This document shows positions 8,625 through 17,463 of a stretch of DNA of 64,000 nucleotides, in pieces. The stretch's first letter is position 1, and every line of letters starts with the position of its first letter. Position numbers and translations under genes: made by a program. The DNA is from Dyadobacter chenhuakuii. Its GTDB lineage: Bacteria; Bacteroidota; Bacteroidia; Cytophagales; Spirosomataceae. The stretch lies in contig NZ_CP098805.1 in NCBI RefSeq assembly GCF_023821985.2, positions 2,294,001 through 2,358,000 of the forward strand, read 5' to 3'. The notes under the pieces are model-generated. The model was not told the DNA's origin. It saw only the letters and a list, made by a program, of their open reading frames with translations, and did no database searches.

Positions 8625-8663
8625 TAATTTTGTTTAACTATTTTTGAAAAACGTTAAACAAAA
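8625..8663 (+). promoter_or_regulatory. Promoter -7 box overlapped by an 11-bp inverted repeat, candidate CarH-type operator
   Basis: TAATTTTG at 8625-8632 fits the Bacteroidota -7 element TAnnTTTG. It overlaps the left arm of a perfect inverted repeat, TTTTGTTTAAC (8628-8638) and GTTAAACAAAA (8653-8663), which runs up to the start codon of the regulator. Binding here would block polymerase, as expected for an autorepressing MerR/CarH regulator. The 10-nt half-site GTTAAACAAA recurs upstream of idi. Confidence 0.6.
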
Positions 8664-9580
8664 TGTCATCATATTCTATCAAAGACCTGGAACGGATCAG
8701 CAATATGAAAGCGCACACCATTCGCATATGGGAGCAGCGTTATGGCTTGCTTGAACCCGACAGGACGGATACCAATATCCGGTCTTATAATGATGACCAG
8801 GTTAAGAAGCTGCTGAATGTCTGCACGTTGCTAGACAGAGGCATGAAAATTTCAAAGATCGGCAAGCTCTCAAAATCTGAAATGGCGAGTGAGATTGAGA
8901 AGGTCATTCATGATTCTTTTCAGGGAGATGTGCATGTGGAAGCGATCATTAACCAGGCACTCATCGCCATCACCACTTTTAATGTTCCGCTTTTCGATGA
9001 GATATTTTCAAATGCTGTAAAAAAGTTTGGCTTGAAAAAGACCTATATAAAGATCCTGTATCCGTTGCTCGTCCGGACGGGCCTAATGTGGGTAAAGGAC
9101 GATCTGCTTCCCTCGCAGGAACACTTTTTATCCAACCTGATCAGGCAAAAACTTTTTGCGGCCATAGACGCGCTGCCTGTGGCCACCCATACGGACCAAA
9201 AGTGGATCCTGTTTTTGAATGAAGAAGAAGATCATGAGATAGGCCTGCTATTTGCCTATTATATGATCCGGCAGGTGGGAAAGGAAGTGGTTTATCTGGG
9301 CGCCCGGGTTCCTTTCAGAGATCTTTCACCGGTTATTTTAGGCTGCGAGCCAACGCATGCATATTCCTTTTTTGTTCGCAATCAGTTTGACGATCAGATA
9401 GAAACACTCCTGGGGAATCTCAGAACTGAGTTTCCGCAAATAAATGTCTGCGTCTCCGGAGGCAGTGAAAAATTAAAGAAAATTGCCTCCAAAAAAGGAG
9501 TTAACTTGATAGAAACAATTGAAAATCTGACTGATATTCTTATCTCTCCCAATGCACAACGGACGCCTACCCAAATCTGA
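8663..9580 (+). CDS. MerR-family regulator with cobalamin-binding domain (CarH/LitR type), likely light-responsive
   Basis: A 305-residue protein. Residues 1-70 are a MerR winged helix (YSIKDLERIS, AHTIRIWEQRYGLL). Residues about 90-170 form a helical B12-cap domain, and 180-300 a Rossmann-like B12-binding domain. Residues seen in CarH photoreceptors are kept: W143, then E153-H154 (W-x9-EH) in the cap, and H191 in DHEIG, the expected lower axial ligand of cobalt. In the family, adenosylcobalamin holds the DNA-bound tetramer and light breaks it, releasing carotenoid genes. The gene heads the crt operon and its end overlaps crtI by 29 nt, so regulator and pathway are cotranscribed. Light sensing is inferred, not shown. 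Confidence 0.88.
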   Translation: MSSYSIKDLERISNMKAHTIRIWEQRYGLLEPDRTDTNIRSYNDDQVKKLLNVCTLLDRGMKISKIGKLSKSEMASEIEKVIHDSFQGDVHVEAIINQALIAITTFNVPLFDEIFSNAVKKFGLKKTYIKILYPLLVRTGLMWVKDDLLPSQEHFLSNLIRQKLFAAIDALPVATHTDQKWILFLNEEEDHEIGLLFAYYMIRQVGKEVVYLGARVPFRDLSPVILGCEPTHAYSFFVRNQFDDQIETLLGNLRTEFPQINVCVSGGSEKLKKIASKKGVNLIETIENLTDILISPNAQRTPTQI

Positions 9581-11054
9581 TAAATCACACGAAATTGCAG
9601 TCATCGGCTCGGGTTTCGCGGGCATGGCAGCGGCCGCAATGCTGGCCGAAAGCGGGAATGAGGTCACCGTTTTTGAAAAAAATTGCAACATAGGAGGCCG
9701 CGCACGGACGTTTTCTCAGGACGGTTTCGTCTTTGACATGGGGCCAAGCTGGTACTGGATGCCGGATGTTTACGACAGCTTCTTCTCGCTGTTTGGCAAA
9801 TCCACTTCTGATTTCTACGAATTAAAGAAACTGGATCCGGGCTTCGCCGTCATCTTTGAAAATGAGGTGATGGACATCCCGGCCAACTTCGATGCAGTTT
9901 GTGACCTTTTCGAGAGCATTGAAACGGGCAGCGCCGACCAGCTCAGGAAATTCATTGCAGAAGGAGAATTCAAATATACGGTGGGCATGAATGACATGGT
10001 TTACAAGCCGGGACATTCGGTTACTGAGTTTTTCAGCCTGAAATTATTCAAAGACGCGCTCAAACTCCAACTTTTTACGTCGTTCAGTAAGCATGTCAGG
10101 CGGTATTTCAAAGATCCGAGGCTGCTTGCACTGATCGAATTTCCCGTGTTATTTCTGGGTGCTATGCCTAAGGACACACCTGCCCTTTACAGCCTGATGA
10201 ACTTTGCGGGCCTTAAACAAGGCACGTTTTATCCGATGGGCGGCTTCGGAAAAGTGGCGGATTCGTTCAGGCAAATTGCGGAGAATGCTGGCGTAAATTT
10301 TTTAACCTGCCAGAACATTGAAAAGCTTGAAGTTACTTCCGACGTCATCAGTCATTTACATACCAACAAAAAAAGCATAAGGACGGATGCAGTAATCGGA
10401 AGTGCTGATTATCATCACATTGAACAGAATCTATTGGGTAAAAATCATCGCACATATGATGAAGCATATTGGGAAAACAGGACGTTTGCCCCGTCCTGCC
10501 TGCTATTTTATTTAGGTGTAAATAAGAAAATTGATAAGCTCCGGCATCACAACCTCTTTTTTGACGAGCACTTTGACCAGCATGCCGTTGAGATTTACAA
10601 AGACAAAAAATGGCCTGAGCGACCATTGTTTTACGTCTGCTGCCCGTCGAAAACAGACCCATCCGTTGCACCCGAGGGAAGTGAGAATTTATTTGTACTG
10701 ATGCCAATTGCCATCGATCTGGATGATCCCGATTCGATCCGGGAAAAGTATTTTGACGTACTTATGGATAGGCTTGAAAAATTTGTGGGCGAGGACATCA
10801 GATCACATGTGGTTTACAAAAAGAGTTATTCTGTCTCAGATTTCATCAGTGATTACAATGCTTATAAAGGAAACGCATACGGACTTGCCAACACGCTGAT
10901 GCAGACGGCCATATTCAAACCAAAACTTAAAAGCAGCAAGGTTAAGAACCTTTTTTATGCTGGTCAGCTGACTGTTCCCGGGCCTGGCGTTCCTCCTTCG
11001 ATCATCTCGGGCCGCATTGCGGCTACTGAACTTCAAAAATACCTAAACAAGTAA
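9552..11054 (+). CDS. crtI: Phytoene desaturase CrtI
   Basis: A 500-residue FAD-dependent desaturase that converts phytoene to lycopene in membrane-associated form. The N-terminal FAD site GSGFAG lies at residues 19-24, followed by EKNCNIGGRARTF. The C-terminal carotenoid-oxidase signature is YAGQLTVPGPGVPPSI, near residue 475. Length and architecture are standard for bacterial CrtI. The ATG at 9552 lies inside the regulator gene (29-nt overlap) and no nearer ATG precedes the FAD motif, so translational coupling is likely. It is followed after 3 nt by crtB. Confidence 0.95.
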   Translation: MHNGRLPKSDKSHEIAVIGSGFAGMAAAAMLAESGNEVTVFEKNCNIGGRARTFSQDGFVFDMGPSWYWMPDVYDSFFSLFGKSTSDFYELKKLDPGFAVIFENEVMDIPANFDAVCDLFESIETGSADQLRKFIAEGEFKYTVGMNDMVYKPGHSVTEFFSLKLFKDALKLQLFTSFSKHVRRYFKDPRLLALIEFPVLFLGAMPKDTPALYSLMNFAGLKQGTFYPMGGFGKVADSFRQIAENAGVNFLTCQNIEKLEVTSDVISHLHTNKKSIRTDAVIGSADYHHIEQNLLGKNHRTYDEAYWENRTFAPSCLLFYLGVNKKIDKLRHHNLFFDEHFDQHAVEIYKDKKWPERPLFYVCCPSKTDPSVAPEGSENLFVLMPIAIDLDDPDSIREKYFDVLMDRLEKFVGEDIRSHVVYKKSYSVSDFISDYNAYKGNAYGLANTLMQTAIFKPKLKSSKVKNLFYAGQLTVPGPGVPPSIISGRIAATELQKYLNK

Positions 11055-11057
11055 GTC

Positions 11058-11894
11058 ATGAAAAGCTTATACGACAACCTTTCCGCGACATGCAGCAAAA
11101 CAACCACACAACTATATAGCACGTCGTTTTCGCTGGGCATTTATTTCCTAAAACCGGCTTTGCGGGCACCCATTTACGGCATTTACGGCTTTGTCAGGCT
11201 TGCAGATGAAATTGTGGATAGTTTTCATGACTACAACAAGGAGTTCATGATGAACAAAATCCGTCAGGATACGGTGGAAGCGCTCCGCGACGGGATTAGT
11301 ATTAACCCGATCCTGAACAGTTTCCAGCACGTTGTAAATACTTATAACATTGAATGGGAGCTGATTGACACGTTTTTGAAGAGCATGGAAATGGATCTGA
11401 TGAAGACGGAGTATACTTCGGATTCATATAATGAATACATTCTTGGTTCTGCGGAAGTGGTTGGTTTAATGTGCCTTAGGGTTTTTACAGAAGGTAATCA
11501 GCAGCAATTTGATGAGCTTAAACCGTTCGCTATGAAACTGGGATCCGCGTTCCAGAAAGTAAATTTCCTGCGCGACCTGAAAGCGGATTACGTGGATCTT
11601 GGCCGGACTTATTTTCCAGGCGTGAATTTTGATCATTTTTCAAGCAAAGAGAAGGAAAAGATCCAGCAGGAGATTGAGGAGGAATTCGAGCAGGCGCTGA
11701 TCGGCATTAAGCGGCTCCCGAGCGGTGCACGAAGGGGCGTTTATCTGGCTTATTATTATTACAAAAAACTTTTCCTGCGCATTAAGGAAACGCCGCCCGA
11801 AAAAGTAATGAACGCACGGATCAGGATTCCGGATCATGACAAGGTAGGACTCATGTTTCGTTCGCTGGTAAGGCATCAGTTCGACCTTTTATGA
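11058..11894 (+). CDS. crtB: Phytoene synthase CrtB
   Basis: A 278-residue head-to-head prenyl synthase that condenses two geranylgeranyl diphosphates to phytoene. Both Mg-diphosphate-binding aspartate motifs are present: D50-x3-D54 (DEIVD) and D173-x3-D177 (RDLKAD) followed by YVDLGRTYFP. The length matches other Bacteroidota CrtB proteins. It lies 3 nt after crtI. A 69-nt gap then holds a candidate regulator half-site before idi. Confidence 0.95.
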   Translation: MKSLYDNLSATCSKTTTQLYSTSFSLGIYFLKPALRAPIYGIYGFVRLADEIVDSFHDYNKEFMMNKIRQDTVEALRDGISINPILNSFQHVVNTYNIEWELIDTFLKSMEMDLMKTEYTSDSYNEYILGSAEVVGLMCLRVFTEGNQQQFDELKPFAMKLGSAFQKVNFLRDLKADYVDLGRTYFPGVNFDHFSSKEKEKIQQEIEEEFEQALIGIKRLPSGARRGVYLAYYYYKKLFLRIKETPPEKVMNARIRIPDHDKVGLMFRSLVRHQFDLL

Positions 11895-11900
11895 CGTTTT

Positions 11901-11917
11901 TTTGTTAGTTAAACAAA
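11901..11917. promoter_or_regulatory. Second candidate CarH-type half-site upstream of idi
   Basis: The segment TTTGTTAGTTAAACAAA contains GTTAAACAAA (11908-11917), identical over 10 nt to the right arm of the operator in front of the regulator gene. A 6-bp inverted repeat (TTTGTT and AACAAA) surrounds it. It may be an internal regulated promoter for idi-crtZ-crtY; no clear -7 box is seen. Confidence 0.4.
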
Positions 11918-11963
11918 GGAGCTGAACATTGGACTGTTAGCCACGAACCTAAAACGCGATTTT

Positions 11964-12485
11964 ATGACTGATCAAGTTGTGCTGGTGAATGAAGACGATA
12001 TGGAAATTGGCCTTATGCCAAAGTTAGAGGCGCATCAAAAAGGCGTTCTGCATCGTGCTTTCTCAGTTTTTATTTTTAATTCAAATGGTGAAATGCTTTT
12101 GCAGCAAAGGGCTTTCGGGAAATATCATTCGGAAGGGCTTTGGTCCAATACTTGTTGCAGCCACCCGCTCCCGGCAGAATCCGCGCATCACGGAGCCGTG
12201 AGGAGACTTTCGGAAGAGATGGGCATTTCGGCCGATTTGCAGTTTCTTTTCACCTTCCAATATCGCGTTAAACTCGAAAACGGGCTGACAGAAAACGAAC
12301 TCGACCACGTCTTCTGGGGCATTTCAGACGACGAGCCGAACATCAATGTGAGTGAGGCGAATGATTATAAATACATGAAAATGGCTGATATTAAGGCAGA
12401 TATGAACCAGAAACCGGAGGCTTACACCGAGTGGTTCAAGATTTGTTTCGCCGAAGTAGCCGACAAAATAAAACCAAAACAATAG
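11964..12485 (+). CDS. idi: Isopentenyl-diphosphate delta-isomerase, type I
   Basis: A 173-residue Nudix-fold enzyme that interconverts isopentenyl and dimethylallyl diphosphate, feeding the carotenoid pathway. The active-site Cys65 sits in SNTCCSHP, the Nudix-like RRLSEEMG lies near 80-87, and the catalytic Glu sits in TENELDHVFWG (about E112). Metal-binding histidines (H25, H30) are in place. The normal type I length is about 175-180. It stands inside the crt operon between crtB and crtZ, with an upstream gap that may carry its own control site. Confidence 0.95.
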   Translation: MTDQVVLVNEDDMEIGLMPKLEAHQKGVLHRAFSVFIFNSNGEMLLQQRAFGKYHSEGLWSNTCCSHPLPAESAHHGAVRRLSEEMGISADLQFLFTFQYRVKLENGLTENELDHVFWGISDDEPNINVSEANDYKYMKMADIKADMNQKPEAYTEWFKICFAEVADKIKPKQ

Positions 12486-12524
12486 CCGACGGCCACTGCC
12501 GGAAGCTGACAGCTTGAATTTACA

Positions 12525-12998
12525 ATGAGTCCCTGGATAGTAAATACATTGATCGTACTGGCCGCATTTATTGGCATGGAATGTGTGGCGTGGATTGCTC
12601 ATAAATATTTGATGCACGGCGCCTTATGGTTTTTGCACCACGATCATCACCAGCGTGATGACGGCGATTTTTTTGAGAAAAATGATTACTTCTTTGCCAT
12701 CTTCGCCACGCCAGGCATACTCTGCCTTTTATTTGGTGTAAATCAAGGGTTTAATCATTTTTTCTGGATCGGATTGGGCATTACGATCTACGGTTTCACC
12801 TATTTTTTGGTGCATGACATCTTCATTCACCAGCGCTTTAAAATGTTCCGTAACACGGATTCGGTTTATCTGAAAGCCATTCGTCGCGCGCACAAAATGC
12901 ACCATAAGCACCTTGGAAAGCATCAGGGCGAATGTTTTGGGATGCTCTGGGTGCCGCTAAAATATTTTAGGGAAGCGAAAAACACGGCGTCCAAATGA
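12525..12998 (+). CDS. crtZ: Beta-carotene hydroxylase CrtZ
   Basis: A 157-residue integral-membrane non-heme di-iron hydroxylase that adds 3- and 3'-hydroxyls to beta-carotene to give zeaxanthin. The histidine clusters of the fatty-acid-hydroxylase superfamily are all present: HKYLMH (26-31), HHDHH (38-42), HDIFIH and HKMHHKH near the C terminus. Hydrophobic helices separate them. It overlaps the next gene, crtY, by 4 nt (ATGA). No ketolase (CrtW) gene is near, so zeaxanthin is the expected product of this set. Confidence 0.93.
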   Translation: MSPWIVNTLIVLAAFIGMECVAWIAHKYLMHGALWFLHHDHHQRDDGDFFEKNDYFFAIFATPGILCLLFGVNQGFNHFFWIGLGITIYGFTYFLVHDIFIHQRFKMFRNTDSVYLKAIRRAHKMHHKHLGKHQGECFGMLWVPLKYFREAKNTASK

Positions 12999-13720
12999 AC
13001 TTCCTATATCTGCTCGTCGATCTTGGTGCAATTGCTGTTCCGTTGCTGTTTTCTTTTCATCCCAAAATTCAGCTGTATAAAAGATGGCATTTGCTCTGGC
13101 CGGCGATTATTCTGTCATTAATTCCTTTTGTGATATGGGACAGCTATTTTACAAAAATCGCCGTGTGGGGATTTACACCGAAATATCTCGTCGGCACTTA
13201 CCTGTTTGGGCTTCCTATTGAAGAAATTCTGTTCTTCATCTGCATTCCCTACGCATGCCTTTTCACTTATTACTGCTTCCGGATCTATTTCGGAACTGAT
13301 TATAAGCTTAAAAACGAGAACCTGATTACGGCCATCTTCTTGTGTTTCACATTGGCCATGGGCGTGACTTTCTACGATCATTACTATACGTCCTGGACAG
13401 CGGTTGGGCTGGTGGCGTTTCTATTATTTTTGAGATTTATTGTCAAGCCGCGATGGCTGAGCTTGTTCTATTTCTCGCACATGTTCCTGCTGATTCCTTT
13501 CTTTATCGTAAACGGGATTCTAACAGGATCGGGACTGGACGAGCCGGTTGTTTGGTATAATAATGCAGAGAATATGGGTATCCGGATATTTACGATCCCA
13601 TTTGAGGACGTCTTTTACGGCATGTTAATGTTGCTTCTGAACACATTCTTATTCGAATATCTCCTTTCCAAATATCCCGTTGCCGAGAAAGAAAACTTAG
13701 AAACGGTCTCCGTGGGTTAA
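12995..13720 (+). CDS. crtY: Lycopene beta-cyclase, fused CrtYc-CrtYd membrane type
   Basis: A 241-residue protein with six or seven hydrophobic helices. It carries two copies of the lycopene-cyclase-domain motif: LPIEEILFF near residue 73 in the first half and IPFEDVFYG near 205 in the second. This is the single-chain form of the heterodimeric CrtYc/CrtYd cyclase, common in Bacteroidota and related to fungal and archaeal cyclases. It converts lycopene to beta-carotene in the membrane. It is the last gene of the crt operon. Its 3' end overlaps the 3' end of the convergent flavoprotein gene by 24 nt, with no terminator visible between. Confidence 0.92.
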   Translation: MNFLYLLVDLGAIAVPLLFSFHPKIQLYKRWHLLWPAIILSLIPFVIWDSYFTKIAVWGFTPKYLVGTYLFGLPIEEILFFICIPYACLFTYYCFRIYFGTDYKLKNENLITAIFLCFTLAMGVTFYDHYYTSWTAVGLVAFLLFLRFIVKPRWLSLFYFSHMFLLIPFFIVNGILTGSGLDEPVVWYNNAENMGIRIFTIPFEDVFYGMLMLLLNTFLFEYLLSKYPVAEKENLETVSVG

Positions 13721-14833
13721 GGACACAAGCTTCTTCAAAACGCCCGGGAAATTATTTAAGGCTCTCAGGGCCAGATCGGTTGTAGTTCTTTTCCCAAACA
13801 ATCCCTGCAAATAATAACCGGCTGTAATTCTGCGTCCAAAAGCGTGGTCCCATGCTTTTTTGTAGTTAGCCGAGACGCTGTCAATACTTTGCTTTTTCTC
13901 AAAATACCGGATCAGCTCGGTGGCCAGAATTTTGGAAGCGCGCATGCCCATGCTCATGCCGTTGCCGCAGAGCGGCGTGATAGAACCTGCCGCGTCACCC
14001 AGGAGGAAAACGCCGTCAGTTTGTGTTTGTTTCCTGGAAAAATGGATGTTGCTGATTACCAATGGATTTTTGTTAACAAATTCGGCATGAGTAAAATATG
14101 CTTTGAGAAAAGGATTTTTATGCAAGACATTTGCCTCCATTTCCTGAATGTCTTTTCCATTTTCCTGCAAATTCCGGGATGTGGTCAGATAGCACAGGCA
14201 ATGCCAGTCCTTATCCACTTTTGAAACTCCGCAATAGCCGTCCTTAAAATTGTGCAGCTCAATGCGGTCAGGTGCCAGATCCGTTTTAATGTGATATTTC
14301 ACACCGATATAATTATCGCTTTCATTCCCGGTGTCCATTAAGTTGCGCGCCAGGAACTGCGGGGTATATTTTCCATAACTGCCGCACAGCACGCCAACAT
14401 TGAAATCCCCAGCCGAAGATTTGATTACAAAACCTTCATTACCAACCCTTTCCAGTCCATTCACTTTGCAATGTTCCACGACAGCGACGCCTTTTGCGGC
14501 TGCAATGCTTGCAAGTGCGTGGTCAAGGCTGAATCTGCTGATCCCGAAACCGCCCATTTGCAAGGAATGTTCAAGCATAAAGCCCTTTTCGGAGCTGATT
14601 CTGAGCTTGTTAATGATGGGTAAATTGAGTTCATCCAAATTCAAACCCAGGCTTTTAATAAAATCCCAGCTTTCCATGGAAATGTACTCGCCGCAAACCT
14701 TATGAAATGGATATTGATTTTTTTCGAACAAAACCACCGAAATACCCCTGTCCGCAAGCTGTATAGCCAGGCACAGGCCTGCCAATCCGCCGCCGATAAT
14801 GCCGCAATCGTACGTTTTAGCTTGCGTTTCCAT
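13697..14833 (-). CDS. FAD-dependent oxidoreductase of the geranylgeranyl-reductase/aromatic-hydroxylase type
   Basis: A 378-residue flavoprotein. It has the Rossmann FAD motif GGGLAG (residues 14-19), the family segment YPFHKVCGEYIS with C47-G48-E49, and the second FAD motif GDAAGSITPLCGNG near 285. These are shared by geranylgeranyl reductases and several hydroxylases and halogenases. ATG at 14833 is chosen over an upstream TTG. It overlaps the preceding methyltransferase gene by 17 nt and is the last gene of the polyketide operon. By analogy with the Streptomyces srs set it may hydroxylate the aromatic product to a quinol; alternatively it could reduce a prenyl chain. Context favours a tailoring role; the reaction is inferred. 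Confidence 0.8.
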   Translation of the reverse strand: METQAKTYDCGIIGGGLAGLCLAIQLADRGISVVLFEKNQYPFHKVCGEYISMESWDFIKSLGLNLDELNLPIINKLRISSEKGFMLEHSLQMGGFGISRFSLDHALASIAAAKGVAVVEHCKVNGLERVGNEGFVIKSSAGDFNVGVLCGSYGKYTPQFLARNLMDTGNESDNYIGVKYHIKTDLAPDRIELHNFKDGYCGVSKVDKDWHCLCYLTTSRNLQENGKDIQEMEANVLHKNPFLKAYFTHAEFVNKNPLVISNIHFSRKQTQTDGVFLLGDAAGSITPLCGNGMSMGMRASKILATELIRYFEKKQSIDSVSANYKKAWDHAFGRRITAGYYLQGLFGKRTTTDLALRALNNFPGVLKKLVSLTHGDRF

Positions 14834-15512
14834 AAACAATCACTTCATGTCGGAATGCCCATTTGTTGCGAACGGTGTATTTAATTGCTCCGGCTTTGTT
14901 CAGGATCGCCAACCATTCTGCTCTCTTAAACCCCCGCAAAACTGACAGCGGTGCATCGTTTTTGACCAGGTAAGATTTAGAAAACAGTTGCGTCAGCCAT
15001 TTAATGGAATAGTAAGCGAAAGGATTTCTTTCCAGATCATTAATAACCAAAACCGCCTTGCTACTCAATGCAAACCGCACAAGTTCAATGAGTTGTTCTT
15101 CTGTTAAATGGTGGCAGAAAAGACATGCGTGAATAATGTCAACCTGTTTCAAATGGCTGAAAATGTGCCTGTAATCGTCACAAATCAATTTGACCGGCGC
15201 TGTTTTCAGGTTTTCCTCTGCATAGGCAATGCAAACAGGCTTAATGTCAACACCATATAAATCCAGCGCATGGCGCTCCTTTTTGTTCCAATTGTCAATG
15301 CGCTTTAATGTATCGCCGCCGCCGCATCCGATATCAACGAGAATATGTGATTCTCCTGGCTTAATAACCTTTTTTAGCGCGTTAAAGGAAATGTTATATC
15401 CGCCCAGCCAATGATTAATGAAGTCAAGTTCCCTTAAATTCTGGAACAAGTCGACCGATGGAATATCCTCCTGGTCAAGCAGCTCCTTATCCTGGCTGCG
15501 GTGTTTAAACAT
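14817..15512 (-). CDS. Class I SAM-dependent methyltransferase of the type III PKS operon
   Basis: A 231-residue methyltransferase with the SAM motif I DIGCGGGD near residues 60-67 and an acidic strand-2 end (GVDIKP). The later DIIHACLFCHHLTEEQL segment corresponds to motifs II-III. ATG at 15512 is used because the upstream in-frame candidate at 15533 is TTG and lies deeper in the synthase gene; even so it overlaps the synthase stop by 8 nt. It sits between the UbiA-PKS fusion and a flavoprotein. The order matches Streptomyces alkylresorcinol/alkylquinone operons, so O- or C-methylation of the polyketide is the likely role. The exact substrate is not known. Confidence 0.82.
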   Translation of the reverse strand: MFKHRSQDKELLDQEDIPSVDLFQNLRELDFINHWLGGYNISFNALKKVIKPGESHILVDIGCGGGDTLKRIDNWNKKERHALDLYGVDIKPVCIAYAEENLKTAPVKLICDDYRHIFSHLKQVDIIHACLFCHHLTEEQLIELVRFALSSKAVLVINDLERNPFAYYSIKWLTQLFSKSYLVKNDAPLSVLRGFKRAEWLAILNKAGAIKYTVRNKWAFRHEVIVYGNAS

Positions 15513-17463
15513 AACGCAGCTGCATCGTTTCAATGCTTAGTCCTGGCCCGAATGCCGCTGCAAAGATTCTGTTGCCTATATTTTCCGGCTTAGCCGTTTC
15601 AAGGACTTGCTTCAATACAAACAAGACCGTAGGAGACGACATATTTCCGAAATTTTTAAGCACATCATAAGTGGCTGCCAGACAGCCTTTATCCAGCTCC
15701 AAAGCAGCAACAAAATCATCCACAATGCGCTTTCCACCCGGATGAACAGCCCAATGTTTAAATGCATCCGGCGCAAGACCGATCTTTTCCAGCATCGGCT
15801 TTATGTTTTTCCGGATCAGGTCAGGCACGTAGGAAGTCAGGTTCATAATGAAGCCGGTTTCCGACAACTGCCAGGCCATATCGGCATACCCATTGTGCAG
15901 GATCAAGGAGTTGAATGCATCTATCTCAACATGATGCGCATAATCTGATCCCGCTTCGGCAGTAACCAAAACCGCTGCTGCGCCGTCTCCGAAAATCAGG
16001 TTGGACAGCAGGTAATCATCATTATATCGCTTCTGGAAATGTATCGTGCAAAGCTCGGTGCAGACGATGAGCACTTTCGCGCGCGGCTGGCTTCTGCAAA
16101 TGGCGTCGGCATTTTTGAGCGCAATAATCGCGGCATTGCATCCCATAAAATTTACGCTGCTGCGCTGTATGGCAGGATTCAGGTCCAGTTCCCGCATCAA
16201 TTCCACGTCCAGTCCGGGCGCAAACAGGCCCGTACAAGTGACTGTTATCAAGTGCGTTAACCGGCCTTTCATCTCAGCAAATCCATCTATTTTCTTGATA
16301 GCACTTATGGAAAGTTCCGTGGCATGCTCCTGATAAAGCTGCATACGCTGGGTCAATGTCGGTTCCGGGAGTAATGTGGCCGTTTTGTTAAAAAACTGAT
16401 AATCTTCCGGCGCTTTATCAAAATCGGCAATCACAGAATAGCGGTTCGCTATGCCTGTTTTCCCCGCTACTATCTTGATTTTTCTCTTATTGGTAATGTC
16501 TTCTGTCGAATTCATGTAGAATGAAGTCAACGTTTCCTGCGAGTAACAATGTTCGGGAACGGCTGTCTCAATAGCAGATATATAACTCAAAGGGATTCTG
16601 TTAATTACAATTAAAATAATGAAACAACTGTTCATGCAGATGGCTGCTATCCAGTTCATCCGCATGGTATTCCTGAAATTCGCCTCACTCCTATCCTTCA
16701 AAACCAGGTAAAACCAATAGCTGAAATAAAGGACGATCGGCAGGAAGAACACCTGGATAATATAAAAAACCATTCCAAGGCCCTTCGATGTAAAGTACAA
16801 ATAATAAAATACATTGCACAGCAGAAACATCGCCGCCGTAAACAGAAATGTACCCCGGTAACCGAGCTTATAGCTTAATGTAACGACCCCATCTTTCAGG
16901 TCCCGCTGGTGCTGATAAACCTGCGTAAGCGGATACGCGCCGGCAATCTGAAAAGAACAGGCTAAAAGCACATAAATATGCTCTCTGCTCAGCATCAGCG
17001 CACTTTCTGAAACACCCGCAATGGACATATAGTAGGTAAATGCACCCTGGAAAATCACAACAGTCAGAAACCCGATAACCGGATATCTTTTCAGCCGGAT
17101 CTGCCGGGAACTATATGCCCGCGACGCTGCAATGTAAAGCACCAGACAAAAAGCGAACAATGTATTTACGAAAAGGAACGCTAAAACGATCGCGGTAAAA
17201 TCCAGAAACATGGTGAGGTAAAAGAGTGCGGCCGTAGGCATAGGAGGCTTTTCGAGCCCGCCAACGCTTTCTTCGTCCCTATCCACATAACTGTTGTAAC
17301 CATTACTAGCCGGGTAAATCAGCAGATGAATGATCAAAAAAGCGAAGAGTGCGTGATGATGCACAACCGTATCTGCCTGACTGTAAGCAAACAGAAACAA
17401 CGGCATCAGGAAAAAAGAAAAAGGAATCCGCAGAAGTTTAATTGTATTGCCATCAATGCCCAT
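15505..17463 (-). CDS. Fusion of a UbiA-type prenyltransferase and a type III polyketide synthase
   Basis: One uninterrupted 652-residue frame. Residues 1-290 are a polytopic UbiA-superfamily domain: first Asp-rich motif N57-SYV-D61-R-D63 (the usual second Asp is Ser58), second motif RDLKD at 187-191 followed by GVVTLSYKLG, and about eight or nine membrane helices. From about 292 (YISAIETAVPEH) a complete type III PKS follows: Cys442 in NFMGCNA, His574 in WAVHPGG, Asn607 in FGNMSSP, and FGPGL near 638. All three catalytic residues are present. Almost no linker joins the halves. The gene leads a tight operon with a methyltransferase and a flavoprotein. Either a prenylated polyketide or membrane tethering of the synthase is inferred. 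A sequencing frameshift joining two overlapping genes should be excluded. Confidence 0.88.
   Translation of the reverse strand: MGIDGNTIKLLRIPFSFFLMPLFLFAYSQADTVVHHHALFAFLIIHLLIYPASNGYNSYVDRDEESVGGLEKPPMPTAALFYLTMFLDFTAIVLAFLFVNTLFAFCLVLYIAASRAYSSRQIRLKRYPVIGFLTVVIFQGAFTYYMSIAGVSESALMLSREHIYVLLACSFQIAGAYPLTQVYQHQRDLKDGVVTLSYKLGYRGTFLFTAAMFLLCNVFYYLYFTSKGLGMVFYIIQVFFLPIVLYFSYWFYLVLKDRSEANFRNTMRMNWIAAICMNSCFIILIVINRIPLSYISAIETAVPEHCYSQETLTSFYMNSTEDITNKRKIKIVAGKTGIANRYSVIADFDKAPEDYQFFNKTATLLPEPTLTQRMQLYQEHATELSISAIKKIDGFAEMKGRLTHLITVTCTGLFAPGLDVELMRELDLNPAIQRSSVNFMGCNAAIIALKNADAICRSQPRAKVLIVCTELCTIHFQKRYNDDYLLSNLIFGDGAAAVLVTAEAGSDYAHHVEIDAFNSLILHNGYADMAWQLSETGFIMNLTSYVPDLIRKNIKPMLEKIGLAPDAFKHWAVHPGGKRIVDDFVAALELDKGCLAATYDVLKNFGNMSSPTVLFVLKQVLETAKPENIGNRIFAAAFGPGLSIETMQLRYV

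Follow-up and report, generated by a model that had tools for sequence, protein, structure and literature searches.

A Dyadobacter UbiA prenyltransferase fused in frame to a type III polyketide synthase whose ancestral start codon is conserved and probably still used

In the window, a stretch of 64,000 nucleotides from Dyadobacter chenhuakuii (contig NZ_CP098805.1, positions 2,294,001 to 2,358,000), a UbiA prenyltransferase and a type III polyketide synthase (T3PKS) share a single reading frame. This UbiA-T3PKS gene is a genuine, clade-specific in-frame fusion of two complete enzymes. The ancestral start of the synthase, the TTG codon of Leu292, is under strong nucleotide constraint in the fused gene, suggesting continued production of free T3PKS. 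In the reading that we favor, the fusion was born in Dyadobacter within a four-gene operon and TTG292 is probably used, giving a membrane-bound fusion along with a free soluble T3PKS, the free form being the one that would carry out synthesis. The gene would then be an example of an overlapping gene pair that fused by one base with the downstream start still under selection, and its annotation as one bifunctional enzyme would conceal two proteins that the cell probably makes. The features are as follows.

15505-17463, minus strand: fused gene UbiA-T3PKS, 652 amino acids, ATG start at 17463 (Pfam, genus search).
16600-17463, minus strand: UbiA prenyltransferase domain, residues 1-288, nine transmembrane helices (Pfam, AlphaFold2, VIA-align).
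17275-17295, minus strand: first Asp-rich motif of UbiA, residues 57-63 (N57 S58 Y V D61 R D63; alignment).
16900-16914, minus strand: second UbiA motif, residues 184-188 (Q184 H185 Q R D188; alignment).
16588-16590, minus strand: TTG codon of Leu292, the ancestral T3PKS start and proposed internal start (codon conservation).
15505-16590, minus strand: proposed frame of the free T3PKS from the internal TTG, 361 codons plus stop.
15508-16584, minus strand: T3PKS domain, residues 294-652 (Pfam, alignment, structure comparison).
16138-16140, 15742-15744 and 15643-15645, minus strand: T3PKS triad residues Cys442, His574 and Asn607, respectively (alignment).

The fused frame closes with a stop codon at 15505-15507 on the minus strand; a reading of this stretch on the plus strand, which has no open frame here, was rejected. 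Pfam placed UbiA at residues 19-268 (64 bits, cut-off 34.2), Chal_sti_synt_N at residues 295-503 (97.6 bits) and Chal_sti_synt_C at residues 521-651 (77.7 bits), and a PHROGs search returned no match. An AlphaFold2 model of the whole fusion, built from a 122-row alignment, recovered both folds with a mean pLDDT of 91.4; at a pTM of 0.67, the relative orientation of the two domains is not fixed by the model. The final UbiA helix of this model ends at residue 288 and the first T3PKS strand begins at residue 294, leaving a linker of about five residues. A preliminary description, made from the sequence alone, had proposed, with no strand named, a complete UbiA and a complete T3PKS in one 652-codon frame with almost no linker between them and had suggested predicting the structure. 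Pfam and the model bear out this layout, and the residue numbers given there for the triad and for Ser58 were correct.

To determine how far the one-frame state extends, we used several searches. Among 48 Dyadobacter genomes, 32 carry the pair as one frame, 13 carry it as two adjacent genes, and three (G001, G007 and G025) have no orthologous UbiA/T3PKS pair. Since one frame recurs in 32 of the 48, an assembly or frameshift error at the junction, about which the preliminary description had warned, is ruled out. A peptide-pattern scan of named genomes, which finds close relatives and was our sole coverage of phyla beyond Bacteroidota, yielded 45 loci: 23 fused, all titled Dyadobacter, 21 separate and one cut off. 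One species with the fused gene is D. fermentans (locus L056). The scan revealed no fused locus outside Dyadobacter, and among the named genomes the closest fused protein to that of the source genome was from D. alkalitolerans (96% identity). Similarly, no one-frame UbiA-T3PKS outside Dyadobacter was among the stronger matches listed in a family search (222 genomes) or a phylum search (395 genomes, where the source genome was the sole Dyadobacter among the matches listed). Looking for both families in one chain, as had been proposed, thus showed recurrence within the genus and nothing beyond it among the matches listed. Two candidates were discarded: one from outside the genus (genome G309, locus L082) has a TAG between the domains, and one flagged for its 698-codon open frame (G555, L120) has a stop after UbiA. 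The beginning of the same UbiA is encoded on a short contig (L081) that is labelled Candidatus Saccharibacteria and is possibly mis-binned Bacteroidota DNA. In keeping with the preliminary description, which knew of no enzyme of this layout, the titles and abstract openings of the literature searched held no description of a UbiA-T3PKS fusion, and as far as our searches reach this domain architecture is undescribed.

The T3PKS domain filled the structure-match table of the whole fusion, and we therefore folded and compared the UbiA half separately. Modelled alone (pLDDT 94.0), it has the predicted nine-helix UbiA fold, and VIA-align superposed model residues 4-288 on AfUbiA (4tq4_D) with a Z score of 24.1 (rmsd 3.2, 268 aligned). 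The fold is shared with the AfUbiA and ApUbiA structures (4tq3-4tq6, 4od4 and 4od5) across the entire domain (Z 20.9-24.1; Foldseek E 7e-6 to 3e-4); they differ from the Dyadobacter protein, at 14-18% identity, in its altered motifs NS..D.D and QH..D. To our knowledge, neither AfUbiA nor ApUbiA has a C-terminal enzyme domain. The classical UbiA consensus consists of NDxxDxxxD and DxxxD motifs. By contrast, NSxxDxD and QHxxD are found in all 70 aligned UbiA rows, with N57, S58, D61 and D63 as well as Q184, H185 and D188 invariant and the final Asp of classical motif 1 (position 65) variable. On these alignments the UbiA half is a divergent UbiA subfamily, not a classical one, and is predicted to transfer prenyl groups. 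The replacement of Asp by Ser58 had been read correctly in the preliminary description, but it is not particular to this protein: as all 70 rows carry S58, it is a property of the subfamily rather than a defect of one member. The source genome (G000) has six UbiA-family matches above the cut-off, the fused gene included.

The C-terminal half matches both T3PKS Pfam domains (PF00195/PF02797) above cut-off and has a predicted T3PKS fold, with Z scores of 48.7 against Ectocarpus PKS-I (4b0n) and about 47 against PKS18 (1ted). This fold is common to PKS18, Ectocarpus PKS-I and Steely1 (2h84; Z 45.9-48.7 for the three), the last being, by its entry title, a type I/III hybrid with a C-terminal T3PKS. 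We know of no joining of any of these to an integral-membrane prenyltransferase. None of Cys442, His574 and Asn607 varies among the 82 aligned T3PKS domains, confirming the complete triad described earlier. T3PKSs are soluble cytoplasmic homodimers that act on CoA thioesters.

The fused gene is followed by genes for a methyltransferase and an FAD enzyme, in this order and with overlapping ends.

14817-15512, minus strand: SAM methyltransferase (Pfam methyltransferase domains), whose ATG at 15512 overlaps fused-gene codons 651-652.
13697-14839, minus strand: FAD-dependent oxidoreductase, last gene of the operon; the listed start is TTG at 14839, and ATG at 14833 is likelier.

For the methyltransferase, the list of open reading frames also offers an earlier start, TTG at 15533. 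The nearest NCBIfam models fell under their cut-offs, both for the methyltransferase (PRK06202, 125.6 bits, cut-off 243) and for the FAD enzyme (geranylgeranyl reductase family, 87 bits, cut-off 158.8). UbiA, T3PKS, methyltransferase and FAD genes, which presumably are co-transcribed as a four-gene operon, occur together in all 44 loci L037-L080. Other Bacteroidota families have the same four genes, either in line or with the UbiA or FAD gene inverted, moved or beyond the short stretch examined. Because this set recurs in several families, the association of UbiA with T3PKS is broader than the fusion, and the shared gene content supports a functional link between the two.

Split UbiA/T3PKS pairs of other Dyadobacter and Bacteroidota encode orthologous proteins in the same gene set, with the T3PKS start codon at the same position. 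They differ from the fusion in being two genes, and the junction between them takes several forms. In 18 of 23 split loci the T3PKS start overlaps the UbiA TGA stop as NTGA (TTGA or GTGA), in three (L057-L059) one stop is all that separates the two in-phase frames, and in two (L079 and L080) there is another overlap. At the position of Leu292, 19 of the 23 have TTG and four have GTG. Moreover, a stop in the T3PKS frame lies 3-12 nt upstream in 11 of them, limiting any earlier start to at most four codons. The overlap found in most split relatives is the arrangement of the 4-nt-overlap termination-reinitiation pairs described in the available text of two reports (PMC6728339, PMC10666635); compared with such pairs, the fused clade has lost the stop and kept the start codon. 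Compared with the NTGA loci of the genus, the fused genes have an extra base just ahead of the shared TTGAGT. We propose that the fusion arose within Dyadobacter through a one-base change that abolished the four-base stop/start overlap. In the in-phase loci L057, L058 and L059, UbiA and T3PKS lie in the same frame one stop apart, as a one-step precursor of a fusion would; L082, outside the 23 split loci, is likewise in phase with one stop.

We inferred trees from the four joined proteins (LG+G4) of 53 distinct loci (74 before removal of duplicates). The best trees confine the fusion to Dyadobacter, require two state changes and place the split locus L034 inside the fused clade, and a single-change topology appeared in 0% of 200 bootstrap trees. 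One fused clade with no reversal was, however, acceptable by an AU test (p 0.248). The simplest reading of these sequence data is a single origin of the fusion, possibly with later re-splitting. Locus L034 (genome G022), split and nested among fused genes, could have regained the TTGA overlap by losing one base; as the AU test does not force a reversal, we do not claim one.

The codon usage at the junction points to the old start. Of the 37 leucines that are invariant across the 30 distinct fused genes, Leu292 alone keeps to one codon, TTG, and TTGAGT is present in all 32 fused genomes of the genus search. CTG never occurs at position 292, although it is the commonest leucine codon of these genes (829 of 2281). 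By parsimony on the fused tree, Leu292 underwent no synonymous change, compared with a mean of 11.2 and a minimum of four at the other 36 invariant leucines; a Poisson guess for zero changes is about 1e-5, a rough value given that sites and branches are unequal. Ser293 is AGT throughout the 30 fused genes, again the only single-codon case (among 18 invariant serines), and its invariant third base is not explained by the start codon. As a control, codons 651-652, which contain the methyltransferase ATG, also show no synonymous changes. In total, nine of 290 invariant degenerate residues have none (292, 293, 651, 652, Q29, Q184, G230, F233 and C280). Since Q29, Q184, G230, F233 and C280 have no start-codon explanation, nucleotide constraint is not unique to starts, and a low number is in any case expected at Gln (mean 2.3). 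A second spot of few synonymous changes lies at 16750-16794 (codons 224-238), around CTTGGAATGRTTTTTTA (codons 229-234), where GGA230 and TTT233 are unchanged in all 30 fused genes; its core is also present in several split Dyadobacter.

Bacteroidetes do not use Shine-Dalgarno sequences, and in F. johnsoniae initiation is favored by weak structure and by adenines at -3 and -6, with -12 and -13 also named, according to the available text of PMC6847099. At the junction, GC3 is 0.26-0.27, the lowest of 641 windows and well under the overall 0.557. GC in the 36 nt upstream of TTG292 is 0.25 in fused genes and 0.24 in split loci, so the low-GC region may be partly inherited. The mRNA structure of the junction is weak on average (mean MFE -6.4 versus -14.4 kcal/mol). 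Overall, 5% of other windows equal it in weakness, a share that rises to 15 and 17 of 56 in two of the 30 fused genes. Adenine occupies -6 in 28 of 30 fused versus 2 of 23 split genes and -12 in 29 of 30 versus 5 of 23, a difference that is partly determined by the amino acids and may stem from few changes. All 30 fused genes have C at -3 rather than the favored A, and none has A at -13. Bacterial genes commonly carry an adenine directly behind the start codon (PMC5850271, available text), in agreement with the TTG-A at 292. The start codon and its initiation region are therefore conserved beyond amino-acid need, as in an internal start, despite the C at -3. The Bacteroidetes promoter TTTG-N17-23-TANNTTTG was not found in the fused gene and occurs twice in the whole window, against a chance mean of 2.96. 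TTG is a weak start codon. As the UbiA stop is lost, termination-reinitiation is gone and initiation at TTG292 would have to be autonomous. Judging from these patterns of codon and base conservation, T3PKS is probably still initiated at TTG292, giving free T3PKS in addition to the fusion.

The side of the membrane on which the fused synthase would lie depends on the UbiA topology. The UbiA loops carry 17 Lys and Arg residues on the N-terminal face and three on the opposite face. This pattern agrees with AfUbiA, for which the available text of PMC4106721 assigns N-in, C-out as probable, citing the measured orientation of E. coli UbiA. We placed the domains by helix count, by charges and by the AfUbiA paper: nine helices and a canonical N-in/C-out orientation would leave the fused T3PKS outside, separated from both malonyl-CoA and the UbiA active site. 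The preliminary description had set the synthase beside that active site, whereas this placement puts it on the opposite face, and the proposed geometry is doubtful unless TM9 is re-oriented. A free T3PKS from TTG292 would resolve the wrong-face placement, a re-oriented TM9 being the alternative. The clade thus provides a sharp test of topology: either the C-terminus of UbiA can be cytoplasmic, or the whole clade carries a synthase on the wrong face.

Were TM9 re-entrant or re-oriented and the C-terminus cytoplasmic, the fusion could itself be the working enzyme, its membrane-held T3PKS passing the polyketide to UbiA. All motifs of both domains are kept in the fused clade, across most of which the fused state persists, and Lys or Arg stands just behind TM9 in 28 of 30 fused proteins versus 6 of 23 split UbiA tails, which would favor a cytoplasmic C-terminus and keeps a re-oriented TM9 possible. 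However, this tail charge may date from a single ancestral event, the hydrophobicity of TM9 is no lower in fused proteins than in split ones (mean KD 1.57 versus 1.40), the nine helices and loop charges place the C-terminus outside (PMC4106721, available text), and a fixed TTG292 would be unnecessary. We consider a working fusion of this kind unlikely. Somewhat less credible to us is that both forms operate together: as T3PKSs are dimeric, tethered UbiA-T3PKS would dimerize with free T3PKS at the membrane. The positive residue that follows TM9 in most fused proteins would help to re-orient this helix and so keep the synthase cytoplasmic, and the result would be a prenylated-polyketide metabolon whose ratio of tethered to free synthase is built into the gene. 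We likewise give little weight to the fusion being a nearly neutral accident, in which UbiA tolerates an inert T3PKS tail and the polyketide comes entirely from free T3PKS. The UbiA topology would suit such an accident, as would the two state changes of the best trees, the nested L034 and the absence of single-change topologies from the bootstrap. Against it, a lone fused clade without reversal survives the AU test, and 32 of the 45 genus genomes with the pair retain the fusion. Finally, it is very improbable that TTG-AGT is kept as an RNA or DNA element, or because frameshifting into +1 would bring a trimmed UbiA to its end at a hidden TGA: every fused gene examined does have the old UbiA TGA, read in +1, within TTGAGT, and the fused gene has further unexplained spots of synonymous constraint, but CTG would keep this out-of-frame TGA as well and yet the base before it is T in 30 of 30, arguing for a start codon rather than a hidden stop, no single slippery codon is conserved upstream (codon 291 is CCT in 13, CCA in 14 and CCC in three), and the Bacteroidetes promoter consensus is absent from the gene.

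In the reading that we favor, with TTG292 under selection and in use, one gene would yield two proteins. UbiA would now be obtainable solely as the UbiA-T3PKS fusion, and the free dimeric T3PKS would act in the cytoplasm, most likely converting malonyl-CoA and a fatty starter into a phenolic or pyrone lipid. UbiA would prenylate this polyketide, and the methyltransferase and the FAD enzyme would decorate it. Sister species with split and fused genes offer a ready natural comparison.

T3PKS, methyltransferase and FAD/oxidoreductase genes lie side by side here, as in alkylresorcinol-type (hierridin-like) clusters. The Planctomycetota operons of methyltransferase, FAD oxidoreductase and T3PKS (PMC10896814) combine the same three gene types, and the cyanobacterial hierridin operon hidABC (PMC8086630) also has them in common, the likeness being one of gene content. 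The tested T3PKSs from such operons make alkylresorcinols, and the operons differ from ours in having T3PKS last in the gene order, as given in the available text of both papers. Term counts on these texts gave no occurrence of "UbiA" or "fusion"; one hierridin-like cyanobacterial cluster, in Raphidiopsis, has a separate prenyltransferase gene (PMC8086630, available text). By analogy with these systems, the product would be a prenylated, methylated and oxidized phenolic or pyrone lipid.

Carotenoid genes lie convergently to the operon in 27 of 32 Dyadobacter loci, with CrtB and CrtI inside the stretch examined. In the window, this carotenoid cluster spans 8663-13720 and encodes CrtI, CrtB, Idi, CrtZ and lycopene cyclase (some of these names come from reading the frames), together with a MerR/B12-binding regulator that resembles CarH with a score under the model cut-off. 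The gene for lycopene cyclase shares 24 bases with the end of the operon's FAD gene.
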